DNA of 64,000 bases from Chitinophagaceae bacterium (GTDB lineage: Bacteria; Bacteroidota; Bacteroidia; Chitinophagales; Chitinophagaceae). Below, in pieces: positions 21,145 to 59,126 of the stretch. The stretch covers positions 1-64,000 of the forward strand of contig JAMLHK010000017.1 in the NCBI GenBank assembly GCA_023957155.1. The letters run 5' to 3'. The notes under the pieces were generated by a model that made no database searches, was not told where the DNA came from, and was given only the letters and a program-made list of their open reading frames with translations. The position numbers were made by a program, and so were the translations under genes. Position 1 is the stretch's first letter. Every line of letters starts with the position of its first letter.

Positions 21145-21193
21145 TTTTAAGCTCCCCCTTCAGGACTTGAACCTGAGACCCTCTGATTAACAG
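21145..21193 (-). repeat. attL: 49-bp tRNA-Asn 3' fragment
   Basis: Identical over 49 bp to 59046-59094. In minus orientation it begins in the anticodon loop (CTGTTAATCAG) and runs through the T arm and acceptor 3' strand. The 5' half of the tRNA is absent here, so this copy is the left attachment-site remnant rather than a functional tRNA. Confidence 0.92.
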
Positions 21194-22876: not shown

Positions 22877-23191
22877 ATGGGCATAGATAAACAAATACAA
22901 AACAAACCTCAATTACCGAAACGTCTTTTTTGGGACTTTAGATATGACGAGATTGATTGGATGGGCGACTATCTGACTGTAATGGAAAGGGTATTTGAAC
23001 GTGGCAGCAAAGAAGAATGGGAGGAGATGATACGTTTCTACGGATACGATCAGGTGGTTCATGCAGTAAAAAACGAGATAAAGTTCCTGGCAGACTATGC
23101 TATTGAGAAGGTTTGTGTGTATTTTTCTATCCCTAAGGAGAATCTGTTATGTTATACACGAAAACAGTCGAGACCGGGACACTGGATCTGA
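22877..23191 (+). CDS. Putative antitoxin partner of AbiEii-type toxin
   Basis: A 104-residue soluble protein (RLFWDFRYDEIDWMGDYLTVMERVFERGSKEEWEEMIRFYG). The WDF...I.W...Y..VI.RV..RG...EW..... pattern is common in small proteins encoded just before AbiEii nucleotidyltransferases (a family I believe is catalogued as DUF6922; not verified). The stop overlaps the toxin start by 43 bases, indicating translational coupling. Antitoxin function is inferred from this arrangement only. Confidence 0.7.
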   Translation: MGIDKQIQNKPQLPKRLFWDFRYDEIDWMGDYLTVMERVFERGSKEEWEEMIRFYGYDQVVHAVKNEIKFLADYAIEKVCVYFSIPKENLLCYTRKQSRPGHWI

Positions 23192-23844
23192 TAAAAAAGT
23201 TGATGCTTGATGAAGAGTTGTTTAAGTTTAATCTTGTTGGCGGCACTGCTCTTTCTTTAAAACTGGGTCATAGAAAATCAATAGATATTGATCTTTTTAC
23301 AGACACTAATTTTGATGCTCATTTCCTGGGCAATCATTTAGAGAAGACGTATAACGCCGCCCTTTCCGGTAGCCTAACGAATGGCGTTTTTGCCTTTATT
23401 AACAATGTGAAAATTGATTTATTGGCACATCAATACCCCATATTAAACCAGGTAGAAATCAAAGAAGGTATAAGAATGTTATCGTTGGAAGATATTGGAG
23501 CGATGAAATTAAATGCTATTCTTAATAGCGGTACCCGTTTGAAAGACTTTGTTGATATGTATGCGCTGCTTGAGCATCTTCCGTTAAACAAAGTAACGGA
23601 AAGTTTTGTGCGAAAATATCCGGATGTGAACAGGCAAATGGCTCATAACGCACTTCTTTATCACAATGATATAAATATGAAACAGAGGATTGATTATATC
23701 GATCAGGAAATTCCCTGGAAGGAAATTGCAGATAGACTACATGATGCTGTTACTAACGATCAGAAGATATTTCAAAAGAAAAACGTTCTTTCTCAAAAGA
23801 AAGCAACTACAATTCAGCAAAGAAAAAGAGGTAAAAGATTATAA
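23149..23844 (+). CDS. AbiEii/AbiGii-type nucleotidyltransferase toxin
   Basis: A 231-residue MNT-fold protein. The nucleotidyltransferase signature is LVGGTALSLKLGHRKSIDIDLF (GG-x-x and DxD), followed by the family motif RMLSLEDIGAMKLNAILNSGTRLKDFVDMYALLE. AbiEii proteins act as type IV toxins or phage-abortive-infection effectors by NTP transfer, in known cases to tRNA. The C-terminal Lys-rich tail (QKKATTIQQRKRGKRL) is probably unstructured. The upstream overlapping gene would be its cognate antitoxin. This pair likely stabilises the island. Confidence 0.87.
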   Translation: MLYTKTVETGTLDLIKKLMLDEELFKFNLVGGTALSLKLGHRKSIDIDLFTDTNFDAHFLGNHLEKTYNAALSGSLTNGVFAFINNVKIDLLAHQYPILNQVEIKEGIRMLSLEDIGAMKLNAILNSGTRLKDFVDMYALLEHLPLNKVTESFVRKYPDVNRQMAHNALLYHNDINMKQRIDYIDQEIPWKEIADRLHDAVTNDQKIFQKKNVLSQKKATTIQQRKRGKRL

Positions 23845-44871: not shown

Positions 44872-45711
44872 ATGAATACAGATAAAGAAATCAAAGAAAT
44901 GATAAAGCAGAAGTACAGCGAAATTGCTTTACAAAACAAAGAAATCAATCAATCATCCTGCTGCGGTTCGGGCTGTTGCTCAACAGAGGTGTATAACATT
45001 ATGAGCGATGATTACAGCACTTTAGATGGGTACAATCCAGATGCAGATTTGGGCTTGGGCTGCGGGCTACCGACACAATTTGCAAAAATAAAAAAGGGCG
45101 ACACCGTAATTGATTTGGGAAGCGGTGCCGGTAACGACTGCTTTATTGCGAGAAACGAAACAGGTGAAGATGGCAGAGTTATCGGTATTGATTTTACGCC
45201 TGCAATGATTGACAAAGCAAAAGCCAACGCCCAACAATTAGGGTTTGCAAATGTTGAGTTCAGGCAGGGTGATATTGAAAATATCCCGGTTTCTTCAAAT
45301 GTTGCGGACGTAATTGTAAGTAATTGTGTTTTAAATCTTGTTCCCGACAAAGACAAAGTTTTCAAAGATATCTTTCGAGTGTTAAAACAAGGCGGCCACT
45401 TTAGTATTTCAGATGTTGTTTTAATTGGTAACCTTCCCGAAGCGCTACGTAAAGATGCTGAAATGTATGCGGGTTGCGTTGCGGGTGCAATTCAAAGAAA
45501 CGATTATTTGGAGCTCATAAAAACAAACGGATTTTCAAATATTACTATTCAAAAGGAAAAACCAATTAACGTTCCGGACGATATTTTGAAAAATTACCTG
45601 AACGAAGAAGAACTACAAAAATTCAAATCGGGCAGCACAGGAATTTTTAGTATTACCGTTTATGCAGAAAAATCAAAACCCTGCGGTTGTGGAACAGAAT
45701 GTTGCAGTTAA
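44872..45711 (+). CDS. arsM: Arsenite S-adenosylmethionine methyltransferase
   Basis: A 279-residue class I methyltransferase. The SAM site is DTVIDLGSGAGNDCFIAR and VIGIDFTPAMIDKAKANA. Cys residues at the positions used for As(III) binding are visible in LGLGCGLPT, VSNCVLNLVPD and MYAGCVAGAI. Both ends are Cys-rich (SSCCGSGCCST; KPCGCGTECCS), common in ArsM and thought to hold arsenic. It methylates arsenite to less retained, partly volatile species. It is 48 bases after arsR. Confidence 0.93.
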   Translation: MNTDKEIKEMIKQKYSEIALQNKEINQSSCCGSGCCSTEVYNIMSDDYSTLDGYNPDADLGLGCGLPTQFAKIKKGDTVIDLGSGAGNDCFIARNETGEDGRVIGIDFTPAMIDKAKANAQQLGFANVEFRQGDIENIPVSSNVADVIVSNCVLNLVPDKDKVFKDIFRVLKQGGHFSISDVVLIGNLPEALRKDAEMYAGCVAGAIQRNDYLELIKTNGFSNITIQKEKPINVPDDILKNYLNEEELQKFKSGSTGIFSITVYAEKSKPCGCGTECCS

Positions 45712-45839
45712 TCGGTTTTGGACAAAATATTGTAACCCAATTGTTATAGCTACTTCTGTAATTGTGTTGCAACTTATTTTTGGGCTTGGGCTTGATCCAA
45801 AATTTTGCATTATCAATATTTTTGTCTTTTTGTTTAAAT

Positions 45840-46259
45840 ATGACACATAAAAAAATATTAGTGCTTTGCACGGGCAACAGTTGCAGAAGCCAGATTGCAC
45901 AAGGTTATTTGCAATATTTTGCAGGCGACAAAGCGAAGGTTTATAGTGCAGGTGTGGAAACCCATGGCGTAAACCCCAAAGCCATTGCCACGATGCAAGA
46001 AGATGACATTGATATTTCAAATCACACTTCTAACAATATTGATGAATATCGCAACATTGCTTTTGACTTTGTCATTACAGTTTGCGACAACGCTAAGGAA
46101 CGCTGTCCTTTCTTTCCCTCAACTGCAAAAAAGTTTCATCAAAATTTTCCAGACCCGGCAAAAGCAACGGGCACTGGCGAAGAAGTTATGCAACAGTTTC
46201 GACAGGTACGGCAGCAAATAAAAGACTATTGTAAGCGGTTTGTAACGGAAAATTTGTAA
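45840..46259 (+). CDS. arsC: Arsenate reductase, low-molecular-weight phosphatase type
   Basis: A protein of 139 residues from ATG 45840, chosen because MTHKKILVLCTGNSCRSQIAQG starts directly with the P-loop strand (the frame stays open to 45762). The catalytic CX5R loop is CTGNSCR. Further residues FVITVCDNAKERCPFFP supply the Cys pair used by thioredoxin-coupled arsenate reductases, and FPDPAKATG the general acid Asp. It reduces arsenate to arsenite for ArsM. No ArsB or Acr3 pump is nearby. Confidence 0.92.
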   Translation: MTHKKILVLCTGNSCRSQIAQGYLQYFAGDKAKVYSAGVETHGVNPKAIATMQEDDIDISNHTSNNIDEYRNIAFDFVITVCDNAKERCPFFPSTAKKFHQNFPDPAKATGTGEEVMQQFRQVRQQIKDYCKRFVTENL

Positions 46260-52156: not shown

Positions 52157-52538
52157 GCTTATGATCGGTGTATAAATACGAAATGGACAAAGGTAATCTT
52201 TAAAAAAATTTTATGCCCTCCAAATTGTGGTTGCTAAAAATGACCTTCATAGCCAGCTTTACAATTTTCTTTATTCTAATAGCTATAAAATAAATGCTGC
52301 AGCATAAAAAGTAACTCGGATTGTTGCTTTGGATGCTATGCTGATGGCGCATGCCCAAAAACCTTATTTATGTCATCTCCACCATTGTCGTTTGTCATAT
52401 TGTTTCATATAGCGTATGTTTATTTTTGCTTTTGAAGCTGTAGTATTAACCCGCAGAATATATTATTTACCCGGCAGAGTAATGAAAGCGGTATTTTTAT
52501 ACCTTTGCAAAAAATTACAGCTCGTAAGTATTATTTGC
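52157..52538. promoter_or_regulatory. Divergent region with TACCTTTG promoter-like element
   Basis: About 380 bases between nhaA and the copper module. TACCTTTG at 52500-52507 matches the Bacteroidetes -7 element TAnnTTTG; no clear TTG -33 is present at the right distance. If used, transcription would start near 52,513, which argues that translation of the first Cys-motif protein begins downstream of that point. Confidence 0.5.
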
Positions 52539-52931
52539 TTGAAACAGTTATCTAAAATAGCGAGTGTTTTTGTAATGTTGATTATGCTTTTGAGCATAAT
52601 GAAAACCTCTATTCTTTATACTGTTTATGAGTATGACAAAGCCTTCTTTATTGAATTGTTCTGCGTCAACAAGGATCGCCCTCAATTAAAATGTAATGGT
52701 CATTGCAAATTGGCTCAAATGCAGAAGGAAGAAAATGAAAAAAGCGCAGGCAATATCCTGAAGCAATTACAGTCTGAAACCGTTTACTTTTCTCCTGTAT
52801 CAATGCCTTTGATAGATAACGACCGCTCTTTGGTGACCGGCAAAGCACAGCTTCCAGCCTACCACAATCAACTGTATTCCTTCCTGTTTACTGCTAAGCT
52901 GATAAAGCCACCGGCAACATTACTCGGTTAG
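52539..52931 (+). CDS. Small membrane protein with C-x9-C-x3-C motif (copy 1)
   Basis: The frame is open from 52416, but a TACCTTTG promoter element at 52500 and alignment with its paralogue suggest a start near TTG 52539 or ATG 52575. That gives about 130 residues: one N-terminal membrane helix (KIASVFVMLIMLLSIMKTSIL) and then FCVNKDRPQLKCNGHCKLAQM, which is C-x9-C-x3-C with conserved Asn-Lys, Pro, Leu and Gly. The rest is periplasm-like and variable. A second copy lies after the TonB receptor gene (56076). It is probably a membrane-anchored metal (copper) binding protein; inferred from motif and neighbours. Confidence 0.75.
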   Translation: MKQLSKIASVFVMLIMLLSIMKTSILYTVYEYDKAFFIELFCVNKDRPQLKCNGHCKLAQMQKEENEKSAGNILKQLQSETVYFSPVSMPLIDNDRSLVTGKAQLPAYHNQLYSFLFTAKLIKPPATLLG

Positions 52932-53157
52932 CAATACAGCTAATATCATCTTGTTTTTAAGCGGTGAAAACTTTTGTGCACTATAGTGTGTAAGGGTTGC
53001 CTTGCATGCATGATCAACATATTCATATATGCTGATGACGCTGTTTTCTTTCTGCTTACCAGTTTTCCTGTATATAATTTGATATGGCTAAGGAGCGCCT
53101 GCGCGCTTGCAGTGACCTGCTGCCTGTCAGTTATTTTTCACCAGACTTTCGTCAATA

Positions 53158-54078
53158 ATGAAAAAAGCGATATTTTTTTTCACCACCCTGTGCTTATCGG
53201 TGATGTCGTGCACTAAAGAAAAAACGGATTATGAAGCAGAGATAAATACGGTAGTGACGGAACATTATGAGTTTAAAGAAGCCGCTGCCATCAATAATGA
53301 TGGTTATGATATCAGCATTGAAGCGCTGAACGGAACTTTTTATAAAGGGTACAATGAGATCCGGTTGAAGATTTCAGGCGATCATACCAATGAAGATGTA
53401 TCTGCAGTAACCTTTTTACCGGTTATGACGGGCGCCGACGGCGGCAGGACCTCCTGCCCTCACCGGTATGCCCTGGTTTACAACGCGGATGCTGAACATT
53501 TCCCGGGATACGCGGTATTTACAAGTGAAAGTAGTGCAAACGAAACTTGGGAACTATATATCAGTTTCACCATTAACAATCAAATCCATTCGGTTAAGCA
53601 AACCATTACCGTTCAGGAGCAACCCAACAAAAACCTGAACATGACGACGTTTACGGGGAAAGATGGTGAGCAATACTTCATCGCCCTGGTGGCGCCGCAA
53701 AAGCCGAAAGTTGCCGAAAACGAACTGGTTGCCGGCATATATAAATTCAACAAACCAGCAACTCCTCCATCCGGGAGCTTTCCTGATCCTTCGCAGTTCT
53801 CCTACACGGAGGTCAGCAATTATACATTGCAGTTGGACCCGCGGATGCCCGAGCCTTCTATGGGCAATCATTCTTCGATCAACAATAAAGACCTGACCCG
53901 GCAAAGCGATGGATTGTATCACGGAGTGGTTAACTACACTATGACGGGAAACTGGACACTGAATTTCATTATGCTAAACCAGAACGGGAAGATCCTTAAA
54001 GGAACCGAAGTGCCAACGGATTTTACACCGGGAGTAGAAGGCGTGAAAAGTGAACTATATATTGATATTTTATTCTAA
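53158..54078 (+). CDS. YtkA/FixH-like lipoprotein, putative copper-binding
   Basis: A 306-residue lipoprotein (signal TTLCLSVMSC). Two similar beta-sandwich halves are visible: the first with LNGTFYKGYNEIRLKISGDHTNEDVSAVTFLPVMTGADGGRTSCPH, the second with DPRMPEPSMGNHSS, DGLYHGVVNYTMTGNWTLNFIM. The Met/His cluster RMPEPSMGNH and the following Gly-Tyr-...-Thr-Gly-x-Trp strand resemble YtkA/FixH-like domains seen with copper proteins. It ends 5 bases before the OprC-like receptor start, so the two are coupled. Likely a periplasmic or surface Cu-binding partner. Confidence 0.75.
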   Translation: MKKAIFFFTTLCLSVMSCTKEKTDYEAEINTVVTEHYEFKEAAAINNDGYDISIEALNGTFYKGYNEIRLKISGDHTNEDVSAVTFLPVMTGADGGRTSCPHRYALVYNADAEHFPGYAVFTSESSANETWELYISFTINNQIHSVKQTITVQEQPNKNLNMTTFTGKDGEQYFIALVAPQKPKVAENELVAGIYKFNKPATPPSGSFPDPSQFSYTEVSNYTLQLDPRMPEPSMGNHSSINNKDLTRQSDGLYHGVVNYTMTGNWTLNFIMLNQNGKILKGTEVPTDFTPGVEGVKSELYIDILF

Positions 54079-54083
54079 GGTTT

Positions 54084-56072
54084 ATGAAGAAGCTACATAT
54101 TATTTTCCCGGTTCTTTTTCTTGGAATGAATGTAAATGCCCAAAATACGCAAGTGCAGGGTGACACAGCCAAAATTCTTGAAGAAGTAAAAGTAATTGCT
54201 CTTGCCAGGAAGAAAATCCAGACTGAAATGAAAATGGCGGTTTCGATAGATGAGTTTTTAGCATCTTCCGACAATATCGGCTTTATAAAACGGGGCGCTT
54301 ATGCCTGGGAACCCCTGCTCAACAATATGAGCACCGAGCGCTCCACCATCACCATTGACGGCATGCACGTTTTTGGCGCATGCACGGATAAAATGGATCC
54401 CATCACTTCGTACGTGGAAAGCAACAATCTTTCTACCATTGACATTAAATCCGGCCAGGAAGGCAGCCTGCACGGGGCAACCGTTGCCGGCAGCATTGAC
54501 CTGAAGAGAAAGACCACGCCATTTACTCCCGGAAAGAAATACAGCGGCGCTTACCAAACTGGTTTCGAGTTCAATAACAACCAGTTTTTCAACCTGGGAA
54601 ACCTCTCTTATTCGAGCGATAAATTCGTGGCAGACGGAAGCATTTCCTTCCGGAAAGCAGGTAATTATTATGATGGAAATAATGAGGAGGTAAACCATTC
54701 ACAGTACAATAAATTCAATACCTCCGTAGGTCTTGCTTATAAAACAAGCCCGTTCTCCGCGGTAAGAGTGGACGCTATTTTTGATAAGGCAAAAAATGTA
54801 GGGTTCCCTGCGCTGCCTATGGATCTGTGGCTTTCCCGGGCGCTTATTACATCGGCTTCCTACAAGCAATTATTTCAGCACGGGCTGATAAGGGTGTGGG
54901 ACACCAAGGTATACTACAATGCGGTAGAACATTATATGGACGATACCAAGCGCCCGGAGAACCTGGTGCACATGGATATGCCGGGCTGGAGCACCACTTA
55001 CGGCCTGGTTTCCCGGGCTAACCTGAAGCATGGTGATTATAGCGCTGAAATTCAACTGAACGCGTACAACAACCTCTCCATTGCAGAAATGCGCATGTAC
55101 CCGCAAGACCGGAGCAAGCGTACCATGTTTGCATACAGTTGGCCCTGGGTTACCACAAAATTTACAAGCCTTGCCATGAATAATTCATGGGATATTTCGG
55201 AGAACAGCAGGGTGAACTTCGGCGGCTCGCTGGGCTATAACTACAACCGTTCCAAATATGTGGAGTTCAACTGGATCTTCCATCCCGGAACACCACAGGA
55301 AAAAAGCAGGATATTGCCGGGCTTGCATGCCAGCTACGAGTTGCAGGTTAAGCAATTCAGCTTTTCTGCAGGAAGCGGATACGGGCATAGAGCGCCTTCT
55401 GTTTCGGAAGGCTATGGGTATTACATCTACAATAGTTTTGACCGCTACGATTATATTGGCAATCCTGATCTCAAAAACGAAATCTCTTACGAAGCCAATG
55501 CAAGCGCCGGGTTTAAAAATGAAAAAACGGGTATAGAAGCCAAAGTAAATTATTTCTATATCCAAAACTATATCATCGGGAGAATTTTGAGCCTGGGAAG
55601 CCCGATGAATTACCAATCGGTCGGGGTGAAGGGGTACACTTCACTGAACCATGCTAGGATTTTCAACATAGCGTTGAATGCCCGCTATAATATCCTGCAG
55701 CATTTACACTGGAAGGGCACAATCACCTATGCACGGGCAACGGATGATAAGGATGGAAACCTGCCCTTCATTCGCCCGCTGAGCTATCAAACCTCCCTTC
55801 ATTTTATGTATAAAAAGTTCGGTATCCAAACCTCGCTGAATGGAGATCTTACACAAAGCCATTACAGCCCGGAATATGGCGAAGACCAAACGCCTGCTTA
55901 TATGATCCTGAATATCTCTGCGAACTACAGCTTTAACATCAAAAATTGTAAAACCGTATTGCAGGTAGGTGCGGAAAACTTATTGAATGAATACTATAGC
56001 ACTTATGCAGACTGGGGCAATATACCCAGGATGGGTCGTAATATTTTCACTTCTTTAAAATTCAGCTTCTAG
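54084..56072 (+). CDS. OprC/NosA-like TonB-dependent copper receptor
   Basis: A 662-residue outer-membrane receptor: signal peptide (LFLGMNVNAQ), plug at about 30-140, 22-strand-type barrel to the terminal Phe (FTSLKFSF). Features specific to copper receptors are seen: Cys100 and Met104 in GACTDKMDPITSY (plug), and His283 and Met285 in VEHYMDD (barrel loop). These match the C-x3-M and H-x-M pairs that bind Cu in Pseudomonas OprC. No STN or carboxypeptidase-like domain is present. It sits between a Met/His-rich lipoprotein and Cys-motif and MbnP/MbnH genes, consistent with copper uptake. Confidence 0.88.
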   Translation: MKKLHIIFPVLFLGMNVNAQNTQVQGDTAKILEEVKVIALARKKIQTEMKMAVSIDEFLASSDNIGFIKRGAYAWEPLLNNMSTERSTITIDGMHVFGACTDKMDPITSYVESNNLSTIDIKSGQEGSLHGATVAGSIDLKRKTTPFTPGKKYSGAYQTGFEFNNNQFFNLGNLSYSSDKFVADGSISFRKAGNYYDGNNEEVNHSQYNKFNTSVGLAYKTSPFSAVRVDAIFDKAKNVGFPALPMDLWLSRALITSASYKQLFQHGLIRVWDTKVYYNAVEHYMDDTKRPENLVHMDMPGWSTTYGLVSRANLKHGDYSAEIQLNAYNNLSIAEMRMYPQDRSKRTMFAYSWPWVTTKFTSLAMNNSWDISENSRVNFGGSLGYNYNRSKYVEFNWIFHPGTPQEKSRILPGLHASYELQVKQFSFSAGSGYGHRAPSVSEGYGYYIYNSFDRYDYIGNPDLKNEISYEANASAGFKNEKTGIEAKVNYFYIQNYIIGRILSLGSPMNYQSVGVKGYTSLNHARIFNIALNARYNILQHLHWKGTITYARATDDKDGNLPFIRPLSYQTSLHFMYKKFGIQTSLNGDLTQSHYSPEYGEDQTPAYMILNISANYSFNIKNCKTVLQVGAENLLNEYYSTYADWGNIPRMGRNIFTSLKFSF

Positions 56073-56075
56073 AAA

Positions 56076-56441
56076 ATGAAAATCGTATATAGTGTTTTGT
56101 TGATGGTGTTATCCTTGCTGATAGGTTTTCAGCAGGCGATAATTATCATGCATTTTAAGCTGAACCGGGATGCGATAGAACAAAGATTCTGTATCAATAA
56201 AAACAAGCCTGAGCTGCAATGTCATGGAACATGTCATTTGAAGAAAGAATTGCAGGAAACGGAAAGCTCCGGGTCATCTGCCATCAGTAATTATCCAAAG
56301 ATTGACATATTCCCTGTCTCATTCACGGCGTTGGAAGTAACAAATCCAACAATTGATATACAGAGTAAAACATCCATTCAAAAAGATACCCTGTATACAT
56401 CGCCTTACAGGGAAATATTTGTACCTCCCCCTATCGGTTGA
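56076..56441 (+). CDS. Small membrane protein with C-x9-C-x3-C motif (copy 2)
   Basis: A 121-residue protein starting 3 bases after the receptor stop. One N-terminal membrane helix (VYSVLLMVLSLLIGFQQAIII) precedes FCINKNKPELQCHGTCHLKKE, the same FC[VI]NK-x2-P-x-L-x-C-x-G-x-C-x-L block as the protein at 52539-52931. The remaining 60 residues (ending YREIFVPPPIG) are variable. Its tight coupling to the receptor suggests it acts with it, for example handing over or sensing Cu at the inner membrane. No published function is known to me. Confidence 0.78.
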   Translation: MKIVYSVLLMVLSLLIGFQQAIIIMHFKLNRDAIEQRFCINKNKPELQCHGTCHLKKELQETESSGSSAISNYPKIDIFPVSFTALEVTNPTIDIQSKTSIQKDTLYTSPYREIFVPPPIG

Positions 56442-56508
56442 CTTTCTATCATGACTTAGTCAAAATTATTATTAGGTGATAAATTTTCGAATACTTAAAA
56501 AAACAGCA

Positions 56509-57375
56509 ATGAAAAATTTAAAAAAATATTTATTAGTATCCCTTATTTTATCTGTATTGATATCCTGTAGTAAAGATGATAAGGATCCTGTTGCCAACAA
56601 TATCACATTGCATTTCAACAACACTTTTAAAAGCAATACCATTGTGCTTGGCAGTGCTACCTCCACTACTGCTACAGCAAACACTTCTGCCGAAGGACAG
56701 GTGCATCACTTTTCGGAATTAAAGTACGTGATAAGCAATATCCGGCTTATAAAAGCAGATGGTACTGAAATCCCTTATAACATCAACGACCTGGATAAAG
56801 GCGCAACGGTTGTAAACCAGGCAAAGACAGAAACTTTGGATTATATCCTGAGCAATATACCTTCAGGCGAATACAAACAAATAAAATTCGGCTTAGGCGT
56901 TAAGCAGGAATTGAACACTTTAGACCAGGCAAAGTTTCCAACGTTTTATGCAACTGCCGGAGCTAATGAAACTGAAATGATGTGGGAATGGGGAACCGGG
57001 TATCGTTTCACAAAGCTGGAAGGGTTTTATGACAACGACAATAAAGAAATGTCCATCCACACCGGAAGCACCGTAGAGGGAGAAGAAGGAGCATATACAC
57101 AAGGCGTTGACGCTTACAGGGATATTACCCTGAATCTTACCAGCAATGCTGTGGTGGGCCGCAATGTCCCTAAGATCACCATCAAGGCAGATTTTGACAA
57201 ACTGTTGAGCGGAAAGACCAATACAATCAAGCTGACATCGGGAACAGGAATGAATGACAATGCTACGCCTAATATTCATACCGCCGTTCAAATGACAAAG
57301 TTTGTTGACAACCTCGGCGGAGACGGGTCAGGCGATATTACCGGCATGTTTTCCATAGACAGTGTAGAAAATTAA
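56509..57375 (+). CDS. mbnP: MbnP family (copper-binding, DUF/MopE-like) lipoprotein
   Basis: A lipoprotein of 288 residues from ATG 56509 (lipobox SVLISC); the frame is open to GTG 56476. MbnP-family features: VHHFSELKYVISNIRLIKADG, SGEYKQIKFGLGV, and MMWEWGTGYRFTKLEGFY, the WxWxxGYxFxxxEG block whose Trp region is central in MbnP/CorA-type proteins (oxidised to kynurenine by MbnH in a studied relative). It is followed by a terminator and then by mbnH. Periplasmic Cu(I) binding is predicted from the family. Confidence 0.85.
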   Translation: MKNLKKYLLVSLILSVLISCSKDDKDPVANNITLHFNNTFKSNTIVLGSATSTTATANTSAEGQVHHFSELKYVISNIRLIKADGTEIPYNINDLDKGATVVNQAKTETLDYILSNIPSGEYKQIKFGLGVKQELNTLDQAKFPTFYATAGANETEMMWEWGTGYRFTKLEGFYDNDNKEMSIHTGSTVEGEEGAYTQGVDAYRDITLNLTSNAVVGRNVPKITIKADFDKLLSGKTNTIKLTSGTGMNDNATPNIHTAVQMTKFVDNLGGDGSGDITGMFSIDSVEN

Positions 57376-57384
57376 CATACTGCT

Positions 57385-57423
57385 AAGAGCCGCCTGAAGT
57401 TCACAGACGTGGCGGCTCTTTTT
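57385..57423 (+). terminator. Intrinsic terminator between mbnP and mbnH
   Basis: AAGAGCCGCC at 57385-57394 pairs with GGCGGCTCTT at 57411-57420, a perfect 10-bp GC-rich stem with a 16-base loop, followed by a T run. It may attenuate transcription into mbnH, only 27 bases further on. Confidence 0.85.
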
Positions 57424-57449
57424 CAATTTTTTAGTCAGTGTCATTCAGG

Positions 57450-58472
57450 ATGAAAAAAGTATTCGGCATTATATCAATCTTTTTCCTGTTGCTATCCTGC
57501 AACAGGGATGATATTGTTCAGCCGGAGCCTTATGACAATCCGGAGCTGTCGCTGAATATTCCCCCGGATTTTCCTGCGCTAAATAATGCCGTAAATGCAA
57601 ATAAGCCTACAAAATACGGAGTTGATTTAGGCGAAAGGCTTTTTAATGAAAAAAGATTCAGCGCGGATAATACTATTTCCTGTGCCAGTTGCCACCATAA
57701 ATCAAATGCTTTTGCTGATAACAATGCCCTGGCAATAGGAATTTACGGCCGGGTGGGACTGCGCAACACACCGCCCATTCAAAACATGGCATTCATGCAA
57801 TTTTATAACTGGGACGGAAAGATCCTCCAGTTGGAAAAGCAGCCGTTGGTTCCCATCATTACTCACGAAGAAATGAATTCTTCTATTTTGGAAGTGATTG
57901 ATAAAATAAATGACGATAAGGAATACAAAGAATTGTTCAGAAAAGCATTTGGCGATGAAAATATAAGCCCGGAAAGGATATATAAAAGCATTGCACAATT
58001 CGGATATACACTGATCTCTGCCAACAGCAAATATGACAAGGTACAACGAAACGAAGGCGAGACATTCACGGAAAGCGAGGCAAGGGGTTACCAGACTTTT
58101 CAGCATAAATGCGGGAACTGTCACAGCACCGCATTGTTTACCGACCAGAGCTTTAGAAATGTCGGTTTCCCTTTGAATCCTAACACCGATGAGGCGGGAC
58201 GGGCCAGGGTAACAGGGGTTCCTGCGGACTATATGAGCTTCCGGGTTCCCTCTTTAAGAAATATTGAATATACAGCGCCTTACGGCAGCTTCGGTCAGTT
58301 TCCTACTTTGAAATCTGTTTTGGATTATTTTGATCATGGTGTTTTGGATGCTGACAATCTTGATCCTGTTTTAAAAGAGAACGGTAATAGAATACCGCTA
58401 ACGGAACAGGAAAAAGAAGACCTTATCGCCTTTATGAAAACGTTAAGCGACAGCTCATTTGTTGGAAAGTAA
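57450..58472 (+). CDS. mbnH: MbnH-like di-heme cytochrome c peroxidase family protein
   Basis: A lipoprotein of 340 residues from ATG 57450 (a GTG at 57438 is also possible; lipobox FFLLLSC). Two c-type haem sites: CASCHHK (after SADNTIS) and CGNCHST (after QHK). GLRNTPPIQNMAFMQFYNWDGK and PFRVPSLRNIEYTAPY-type segments belong to the MauG/CcpA fold. In the MbnPH system the partner oxidises MbnP Trp to kynurenine. Adjacent mbnP supports this over a simple peroxidase role. Needs cytochrome c maturation encoded elsewhere. Confidence 0.88.
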   Translation: MKKVFGIISIFFLLLSCNRDDIVQPEPYDNPELSLNIPPDFPALNNAVNANKPTKYGVDLGERLFNEKRFSADNTISCASCHHKSNAFADNNALAIGIYGRVGLRNTPPIQNMAFMQFYNWDGKILQLEKQPLVPIITHEEMNSSILEVIDKINDDKEYKELFRKAFGDENISPERIYKSIAQFGYTLISANSKYDKVQRNEGETFTESEARGYQTFQHKCGNCHSTALFTDQSFRNVGFPLNPNTDEAGRARVTGVPADYMSFRVPSLRNIEYTAPYGSFGQFPTLKSVLDYFDHGVLDADNLDPVLKENGNRIPLTEQEKEDLIAFMKTLSDSSFVGK

Positions 58473-58556
58473 TCAGGAAGCTGTAAAATATTTTCTTCCT
58501 CAACGACAAGATGTTCATTAAAAAATAAACTGATTTAGATAAATAAAAGGAAAACA

Positions 58557-58859
58557 ATGAACAGGAGAACTAAAATAACATACACTCTCTTATTAACAAT
58601 ATTTACAGCCTGTAATGTAGGCGACAAAGGGGATATTCATAACAAAGAAACCCATGTGATGCAAATGCCGACAGAAACTTCCAAAAGAGGATTTGAAGGC
58701 ATCCGGTTTGCATCTAAAAGAGATACAATTTGTCACATGCCGGTAAATAACGAAACAGCCGCAGATACACTCGTGTTAGATGGAAAAGTTTACGGCTTTT
58801 GTTCAAAGGAATGTAAGGAAGACTTTGCCAAGATATTAAAGGAACAAAATAAAAGATGA
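58557..58859 (+). CDS. YHS-domain-like lipoprotein
   Basis: A 100-residue lipoprotein (signal LLLTIFTAC). The C-terminal half is a YHS/TRASH-like metal-binding finger: DTICHMPV, then DGKVYGFCSKECKEDF, matching the family pattern DPVCGMxV...G..Y.FCS..C...F. YHS proteins near copper genes bind Cu(I) or act as metallochaperones. It is the last gene before the right island end and fits the copper theme of the block. Confidence 0.83.
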   Translation: MNRRTKITYTLLLTIFTACNVGDKGDIHNKETHVMQMPTETSKRGFEGIRFASKRDTICHMPVNNETAADTLVLDGKVYGFCSKECKEDFAKILKEQNKR

Positions 58860-59045: not shown

Positions 59046-59094
59046 TTTTAAGCTCCCCCTTCAGGACTTGAACCTGAGACCCTCTGATTAACAG
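59046..59094 (-). repeat. attR: 49-bp repeat overlapping tRNA-Asn 3' part
   Basis: Identical to attL at 21145-21193. It covers the 3' 42 bases of the intact tRNA-Asn gene plus 7 bases beyond, so integration restored a full tRNA here. Confidence 0.92.
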
Positions 59095-59126
59095 TCAGAT
59101 GCTCTAACCAACTGAGCTAAGGAGGA
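59053..59126 (-). tRNA. tRNA-Asn (GTT)
   Basis: A 74-base cloverleaf without encoded CCA. The acceptor 5' strand TCCTCCT pairs with AGGGGGA, the D arm is GCTCAGTTGGTTAGAGC, the anticodon stem TCTGA/TCAGA closes the loop CTGTTAA with anticodon GTT, and the T arm contains GGTTCAAGTCC. It is the integration target of the island. Confidence 0.95.

Follow-up and report, generated by a model that had tools for sequence, protein, structure and literature searches.

A candidate copper acquisition module with two putative nascent-chain sensing leaders on an integrative island of a Chitinophagaceae bacterium

The window analysed here (the whole 64,000-nucleotide stretch of contig JAMLHK010000017.1, assembly GCA_023957155.1, from a Chitinophagaceae bacterium) carries towards its right end seven successive genes, raising the question of whether they work as one system and, above all, what two small cysteine-containing proteins, CYS1 and CYS2, contribute to it. 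A first-pass annotation had read them as seven same-strand genes forming a single copper system carried as island cargo, the two Cys proteins being copper-handling partners flanking a receptor. An open reading frame (ORF) check of the window confirmed that all seven ORFs at 52539-58859 lie on the forward strand and that the announced C-x9-C-x3-C motif is present in both CYS1 and CYS2. To our knowledge, copper acquisition and sensing in Bacteroidota are little known. We propose that the region is probably a Bacteroidota copper acquisition module, in which CYS1 and CYS2 would be nascent-chain copper-sensing leaders, not carriers. Its features, with lengths in amino acids (aa) or nucleotides (nt), are the following.

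52539..52931, + strand: CYS1, 130 aa, hydrophobic N-terminus, C-x9-C-x3-C, C-terminal end KPPATLLG
52932..53157, + strand: CYS1-lipoprotein gap, 226 nt, proposed control site
53158..54078, + strand: YtkA-like lipoprotein gene, with the Met/His stretch RMPEPSMGNHSS
54084..56072, + strand: OprC-type TonB-dependent receptor gene, putative ligands C100, M104, H283 and M285 (ORF numbering)
56076..56441, + strand: CYS2, 121 aa, built as CYS1, C-terminal end FVPPPIG
56476..57375, + strand: MbnP lipoprotein gene (PF20243), with WxW and His; ATG at 56509 likelier as true start
57438..58472, + strand: MbnH/MauG-like di-haem enzyme gene, with two CxxCH
58557..58859, + strand: YHS lipoprotein gene (PF04945), local addition outside the conserved module

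Co-occurrence in other genomes, the check suggested by the first-pass annotation, was run on named genomes with a 13-sequence receptor alignment, and the best 80 of 577 confirmed stretches, chosen by receptor similarity, constitute the named loci (from Sphingobacterium, Flavobacterium, Chryseobacterium, Winogradskyella, Maribacter and others). The core order YtkA-like lipoprotein-receptor-MbnP-MbnH was retained in 80/80 of them, which, since the loci were selected by receptor similarity, indicates that the other three genes accompany this receptor clade but is no measure of module frequency. A Cys protein preceded the lipoprotein gene in 76/80 loci, the remaining four lying at contig ends; another stood between receptor and MbnP in 41/80, and all six genes were present in 39/80. 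Three distant loci (L049, L050 and L055) held the same four functions in a rearranged order, leader-MbnP-MbnH-YtkA-type lipoprotein-receptor. Taken with the copper ligands kept in the receptor, these patterns support the copper theme and the single system proposed at first pass, and run counter to the absence of co-occurrence that the first-pass annotation had named as a refutation. The YHS lipoprotein, which that annotation had counted in, is a local addition and not a conserved member of the module, a YHS gene behind MbnH, as in the window, occurring only in L174 and L176 among the 80 named loci. Four Chryseobacterium loci (L228, L232, L244 and L248) displayed the order CYS YHS CYS YTK receptor MbnP MbnH, with an upstream YHS gene bearing its own Cys-family leader. 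The genome of the window itself contains a single MbnP, a second Cys-lipoprotein-receptor set that lacks both MbnP and MbnH (L002/L034), and a further Cys gene (L119) heading another TonB receptor and a YHS-tailed lipoprotein. Our literature search turned up no published six-gene module with two leaders.

Copper as the substrate is suggested by the receptor. Compared with solved structures, it had six sequence matches at E up to 0.01, all to OprC, and its alignment with OprC 6fok placed GACTDKMDP over GACPNRMDA and EHYMDD over DHIMDN. The copper ligands of OprC are Cys143, Met147, His323 and Met325 (accessible part of PMC8610252), and all four (CxxxM/HxM) are present in the window receptor as C100, M104, H283 and M285. 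In a phylum sample of 296 genomes, the receptor was found at 1e-30 in 62, and 60 of 67 receptor neighbourhoods were fetched; among 60 receptors compared (59 fetched plus that of the window, one interrupted gene being left out), the C, M, H and M ligands were retained in 56, three having Gly for Cys and one deviating at all four. Judged by this alignment, the receptor is OprC-type, related to OprC with all four putative ligand residues in place. A Bacteroidota OprC-like receptor with CxxxM-HxM has already been published from Bizionia argentinensis (accessible part of PMC11213822), and copper represses OprC (PMC8610252, same limit).

The other core members match their families to differing degrees. 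The YtkA-like lipoprotein reached 20.8 bits against Pfam PF13115, under the cut-off of 25.9, while those of two distant modules exceeded it (38.8 and 27.9 bits); its Met/His stretch was invariant save one position across 32 sequences, and its predicted structure was beta-rich with a mean predicted local distance difference test (pLDDT) score of 79. Compared with the PDB, this model gave only poor immunoglobulin-like superpositions (template modelling score ~0.2), which are uninformative. MbnP scored above the Pfam PF20243 cut-off (124.6 bits; cut-off 27) and below that of NCBIfam TIGR04052 (71.2 bits; cut-off 140), with WxW and one His invariant among 22 aligned sequences. Its profile matched one solved sequence, 7l6g, laying WEW over WNW and the histidine of HTGS over that of HVGS. 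Read from the sequence, the lipobox cysteine is its only Cys, and for this reason the window MbnP differs from the four-Cys type named for 7l6g. The di-haem enzyme matched Pfam CCP_MauG PF03150 (161.8 bits; cut-off 25.6), and its top NCBIfam match was MbnH TIGR04039 at 208 bits. The YHS lipoprotein passed PF04945 with 33.4 bits (cut-off 30.3), whereas CYS1, CYS2 and the receptor yielded nothing above cut-off in the Pfam scan.

The two Cys proteins present a layout of their own. Among 26 aligned relatives, C, C, G, C, P and P were the only invariant columns, and ten scanned Cys-family members gave no family match above cut-off. PP lay within the last 14 residues in 38/40 Cys-family proteins near receptors, against 8/627 ORFs of at least 200 aa and 53/809 ORFs of 90-199 aa from the same DNA. 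The last Cys stood 62-70 residues from PP in 37 of these 40 proteins (the first CxxxC being used where the longer motif was absent), and 63-71 residues, with a standard deviation of 2.2, in 50 of 51 aligned proteins. A hydrophobic N-terminal helix is suggested in both by sequence and, for CYS2, by the AlphaFold2 model, which predicts helices at 2-38 and 55-66 and falls below pLDDT 50 at 67-115. The start of CYS1 was taken as TTG at 52539, an alternative ATG at 52416 being possible; the shorter form is favoured by a TAnnTTTG sequence at 52500, upstream of the TTG, which we take to be a box motif. The gap behind CYS1 measures 226 nt in the window and ranges from 87 to 448 nt among 76 named relatives (with script-assigned start codons), and that between CYS2 and MbnP 34 or 67 nt, depending on the MbnP start codon. 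Single-sequence structure in the CYS1 gap was moderate relative to mononucleotide shuffles (z -2.1 in the window, -5.0 to 0.2 in 30 relatives).

Across the phylum sample, a profile search found the Cys family in 122/296 genomes. Among 150 listed members, 39 preceded MbnP on the same strand by no more than 1 kb (32 of these 39 without an OprC-type receptor within 6 kb) and none lay within 1 kb of MbnP in the wrong order; 31/150 preceded an OprC-type receptor by at most 1.6 kb, and five Cys genes stood directly behind a receptor, which is the position of CYS2. PP occurred within the last 14 residues of 79 of the remaining 80 listed members, a count to be read with the fact that the profile includes PP. 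Of these 80, 52 headed an operon-like run that includes another TonB receptor, in 12 cases along with PepSY_TM; as two tandem leader pairs share a run, this amounts to 50 distinct TonB-receptor runs, 11 with PepSY_TM. The run behind contained a YHS lipoprotein in 5 cases, MbnP in 2 and MbnH in 2, neighbour labels having been given by similarity to scanned representatives and 31/80 runs beginning with a gene that was not classed. The tandem pairs, in which two Cys-family leaders precede one TonB receptor, are L107/L108 (G249:C1:6021474-6022475) and L106/L118 (G206).

Other genes were also observed behind members of this family. Proteins of ~300-350 aa, grouped by similarity and several of them carrying CDxCGC or CAACGC close to their N-terminus, follow Cys-family leaders in L099, L128, L142, L149, L160 and L164; in L099 this protein precedes MbnP-MbnH, and a Pfam scan of those of L099, L128, L149 and L160 gave no match. 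In L109, a Cys-family leader lies ~1 kb before a gene for an Fe/Mn superoxide dismutase.

The same position is occupied in other genomes by proteins of different make. A Cys-containing PP-tailed ORF (80-200 aa, at least 2 Cys, PP among the final 20 residues) was found at most 700 nt upstream of 51/60 receptors, against 0/60 downstream and 1/60 antisense, and three of the nine loci missing it have less than 810 bases of contig upstream. Besides the Cys family, some of these ORFs encode Cys-rich proteins with an LRPP end and others proteins with an FHPP end; six were scanned without a Pfam or NCBIfam match over cut-off. In nine loci (L047, L048, L054, L056, L059, L060, L061, L063 and L066), a Cys-rich protein of 147-160 aa with WN..G near the N-terminus, CHH and a DLLRPPR-like end precedes the YtkA lipoprotein-receptor pair by 35-104 nt and makes another leader-like group. 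Directly before the MbnP of the rearranged modules stand a DUF2946 (CruR-family) protein barely over its cut-off in L049 (24.2 vs 23.7 bits) and, in L050 and L055, RGPP-ending proteins with no Pfam match. Profile comparison with hhalign gave 82% for the LRPP- against the FHPP-ending group and 1.0 to 36% for the other pairs of leader groups, the 36% on the tail only. The LRPP- and FHPP-ending groups may thus be related to each other, and an initial count of four wholly unrelated leader families was for that reason cut to three groups.

On these grounds, the system could work as follows. The OprC-type receptor would import copper ions across the outer membrane, beyond which the YtkA-like lipoprotein and MbnP would hold them. 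In the MbnP/MbnH family, MbnH oxidises a tryptophan of MbnP to kynurenine and so forms a copper site, and the same maturation may be expected here from family membership and from the WxW and His that are kept. CYS1 and CYS2 would be translated and exported, their CxxxC reaching the export side at about the moment when PP enters the active centre of the ribosome: given the lengths of the ribosome tunnel and the translocon, with PP at the peptidyl transferase centre a site ~65 residues upstream would already lie past both, and CxxxC could therefore meet copper outside during the pause. Copper binding would then alter the stall on PP and change the expression of the genes behind, as for CruR and CutF, with CYS1 governing the lipoprotein and receptor and CYS2 governing MbnP and MbnH. 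Following the logic of CruR, copper would switch these genes off, as expected of an uptake system. The long CYS1 gap (226 nt, against 162 nt for CruR in the accessible parts of PMC9426467 and PMC12914433) would suit control of transcription, and the short CYS2 gap (34 or 67 nt) control of translation. All of these regulatory steps for CYS1 and CYS2 we infer by analogy.

Several results weigh against this interpretation. On the side of the copper genes, the receptor scores 80.5 bits on the NCBIfam copper receptor model TIGR01778, whose cut-off is 472, and higher on a haem/transferrin receptor model (95 bits; cut-off 324); the 208 bits of the di-haem enzyme fall under the NCBIfam MbnH cut-off of 363, and its closest solved structure is the di-haem peroxidase 1iqc, slightly ahead of 6e1c, which we take to be MbnH. 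MbnP was present in 78 of the sampled genomes, the receptor in 62 and both in 25, and the two lie at most 6 kb apart in only 13 of those 25, so that MbnP-OprC linkage was rejected as a phylum-wide rule. As for the leaders, CYS2 was not found in 39/80 modules and 62/101 MbnP genes had no listed Cys-family leader within 1 kb; the search profile of the family itself contains PP, and the positional criterion behind the 51/60 count was chosen after inspection of the data, an earlier and stricter one giving 36/60 vs 1 and 0. The distance from N-terminus to Cys is nearly as constant as that from Cys to PP (standard deviation 2.9 in the 51-sequence set), for which reason a constant Cys-PP spacing does not prove the point by itself. 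No homology linking the Cys family to DUF2946 was found: CYS1 and CYS2 gave no hit to PF11162 at E up to 1, eight relatives gave none either, and comparison with Bacteroidota DUF2946-type proteins revealed no profile similarity (hhalign 1.5%). RNA structure as the sensor was rejected: 52 non-redundant sequences of the CYS1 gap, 200-345 nt long, yielded no consensus fold, and the CYS2 gaps are variable, that of the window not being unusually structured (z -0.5; -6.5 to 3.1 in 30 relatives). A Rho-site composition was also dismissed in the window, where no sign of one was seen and the excess of C over G is slight, in CYS1 only (20.4 vs 18.1%).

The competing explanations concern what the Cys proteins do, the purpose of the module and the substrate. 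The Cys proteins might be membrane-anchored copper(I) carriers or receptor partners, with a PP tail that serves in binding or sorting and a module devoted purely to transport and storage. Their hydrophobic N-terminus, the CxxxC that is a usual Cu(I) motif, the helices predicted by AlphaFold2 on both sides of the Cys motif and the copper genes adjoining them in the loci compared would agree with this, yet Cys genes precede their gene block, with none within 1 kb of MbnP in the wrong order, the stretch between the Cys and PP motifs is unconserved and predicted disordered, similarly laid-out proteins from other families occupy the same place, and CYS2 can drop out while the core remains. We consider this role unlikely, and the first-pass reading of copper-handling partners flanking the receptor is not supported; a better fit is given by a pair of PP-tailed leaders, one at the head of each gene block.

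A role of the module in copper defence or surface sequestration, with excess copper bound outside the cell and the genes copper-induced as CutF induces CutO, seems improbable to us. It would find a precedent in CutF itself, which raises a detoxifying oxidase in copper (accessible part of PMC9973294), and company in the Cys-rich methyltransferase and low-molecular-weight phosphatase of the same island; set against this, neither a multicopper oxidase nor an efflux pump is encoded by the seven genes, import is the expected activity of a TonB-dependent receptor bearing OprC ligands (PMC8610252), and OprC and the CruR-controlled genes are copper-repressed (PMC8610252; PMC9426467, PMC12914433; accessible parts). 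Import of something other than copper ions, for instance haem or a metallophore complex, would explain why the haem/transferrin model outscores the copper model (95 vs 80.5 bits), and is nonetheless very improbable in view of the four OprC ligands in 56/60 receptors, of six solved matches that are all OprC, and of the adjoining MbnP and MbnH.

Beyond this locus, we tentatively put forward, as a possibility somewhat short of probable, a phylum-wide layer of nascent-chain copper sensors for copper uptake in Bacteroidota: at least three leader groups not joined by profile comparison (C-x9-C-x3-C ending FxPP; Cys-rich LRPP/FHPP; DUF2946-type RGPP) would share one position ahead of the same receptor genes, and the two sensors here might set receptor and MbnP/MbnH separately, each with its own copper threshold. 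Were the Cys proteins sensors, a function would be gained for a family present in 122/296 sampled genomes, and the swaps of leader family would show that the arrest principle is kept, and not the sequence. The conserved unit in cultured Flavobacterium and Sphingobacterium links MbnP/MbnH to a putative receptor for ionic copper and offers a simple genetic test; among the carriers is the non-pathogenic F. anhuiense (L216/L218).

The module sits at the right end of a 37.9-kb island, and the earlier description as island cargo was right. The island is an integrative element in tRNA-Asn, bounded by a 49-bp direct repeat that brackets tyrosine integrase, relaxase and module:

21145..21193, strand not assigned: island left end, 49-bp direct repeat
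59046..59094, strand not assigned: island right end, 49-bp direct repeat, which is the 3' part of tRNA-Asn (59052-59126, - strand)

A tyrosine integrase (21362) lies beside the left end, and the island further encodes a relaxase, a group II intron reverse transcriptase and a CHC2/Toprim protein. Among four near relatives compared, DNA similarity to the window stops within the right repeat in three (at 59065 in L174 and L175, and at 59094 in L176) and, in L226, at 58477, directly past MbnH; the entire 49-bp repeat was not found in these four. The view of the module as travelling cargo rests on the repeat of the window together with these break points. A receptor search of plasmid records at 1e-30 returned no match. 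The island also carries an AbiEii-type nucleotidyl transferase at 23149-23844, close to its left end, and, at 44872-46259, a Cys-rich methyltransferase (presumably ArsM-like) followed by a low-molecular-weight phosphatase (presumably ArsC-like), possibly arsenic genes.

Set beside known systems, whose sources are cited here for their accessible parts, the module combines elements described separately. The window receptor aligns with OprC/NosA (PMC8610252) and shares the CxxxM-HxM ligands, and differs in lying under the NCBIfam cut-off and in its linkage to a YtkA-like lipoprotein, MbnP and MbnH. The MbnP/MbnH pair (7l6g; 6e1c), which occurs far outside methanobactin producers (PMC3621798), is encoded here by adjacent genes with WxW and His retained, although the window MbnP is a lipoprotein with a lone lipobox Cys, unlike the four-Cys 7l6g type; an assigned role for the pair outside methanotrophs was not found in the literature searched. 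By layout and operon place, and not by sequence likeness to DUF2946, the Cys proteins appear to resemble the already known CutF/CruR kind. Rhodobacter CutF combines CxxxC with a proline-rich end (PMC9973294), and that source, which lists 5,334 CutF-like proteins, already counts some in Bacteroidota and names TonB-like neighbours, its accessible part making no mention of the six-gene module and assaying no Bacteroidota member. CYS1 and CYS2 agree with its description of CutF-like proteins in length (130 and 121 aa, under 150), in a PP within the last 15 residues and in a same-strand gene at no more than 1000 nt, and they show a hydrophobic N-terminal helix where that description asks for an N-terminal signal peptide; CutF raises its target in copper, whereas for the uptake system proposed here copper would be expected to switch the genes off. 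CruR of Bordetella, a DUF2946 protein with CXXC and a C-terminal RAPP 45 residues apart, heads an operon of a copper TonB receptor (CrtA/BfrG) and PepSY_TM, and with copper the stall is given up and Rho ends transcription, the genes under its control being copper-repressed (PMC9426467, PMC12914433). The Cys family departs from it by CxxxC, a spacing of ~65 residues, FxPP/KPP ends and the lack of any sequence similarity found, and the window cluster by its two leaders, its OprC-type receptor and MbnP/MbnH. Both nevertheless place a small Cys leader with a C-terminal PP and a conserved Cys-PP distance directly before a copper TonB receptor, and the receptor-PepSY_TM runs headed by certain Cys-family members in Bacteroidota reproduce the cruR-crtA-PepSY_TM layout.

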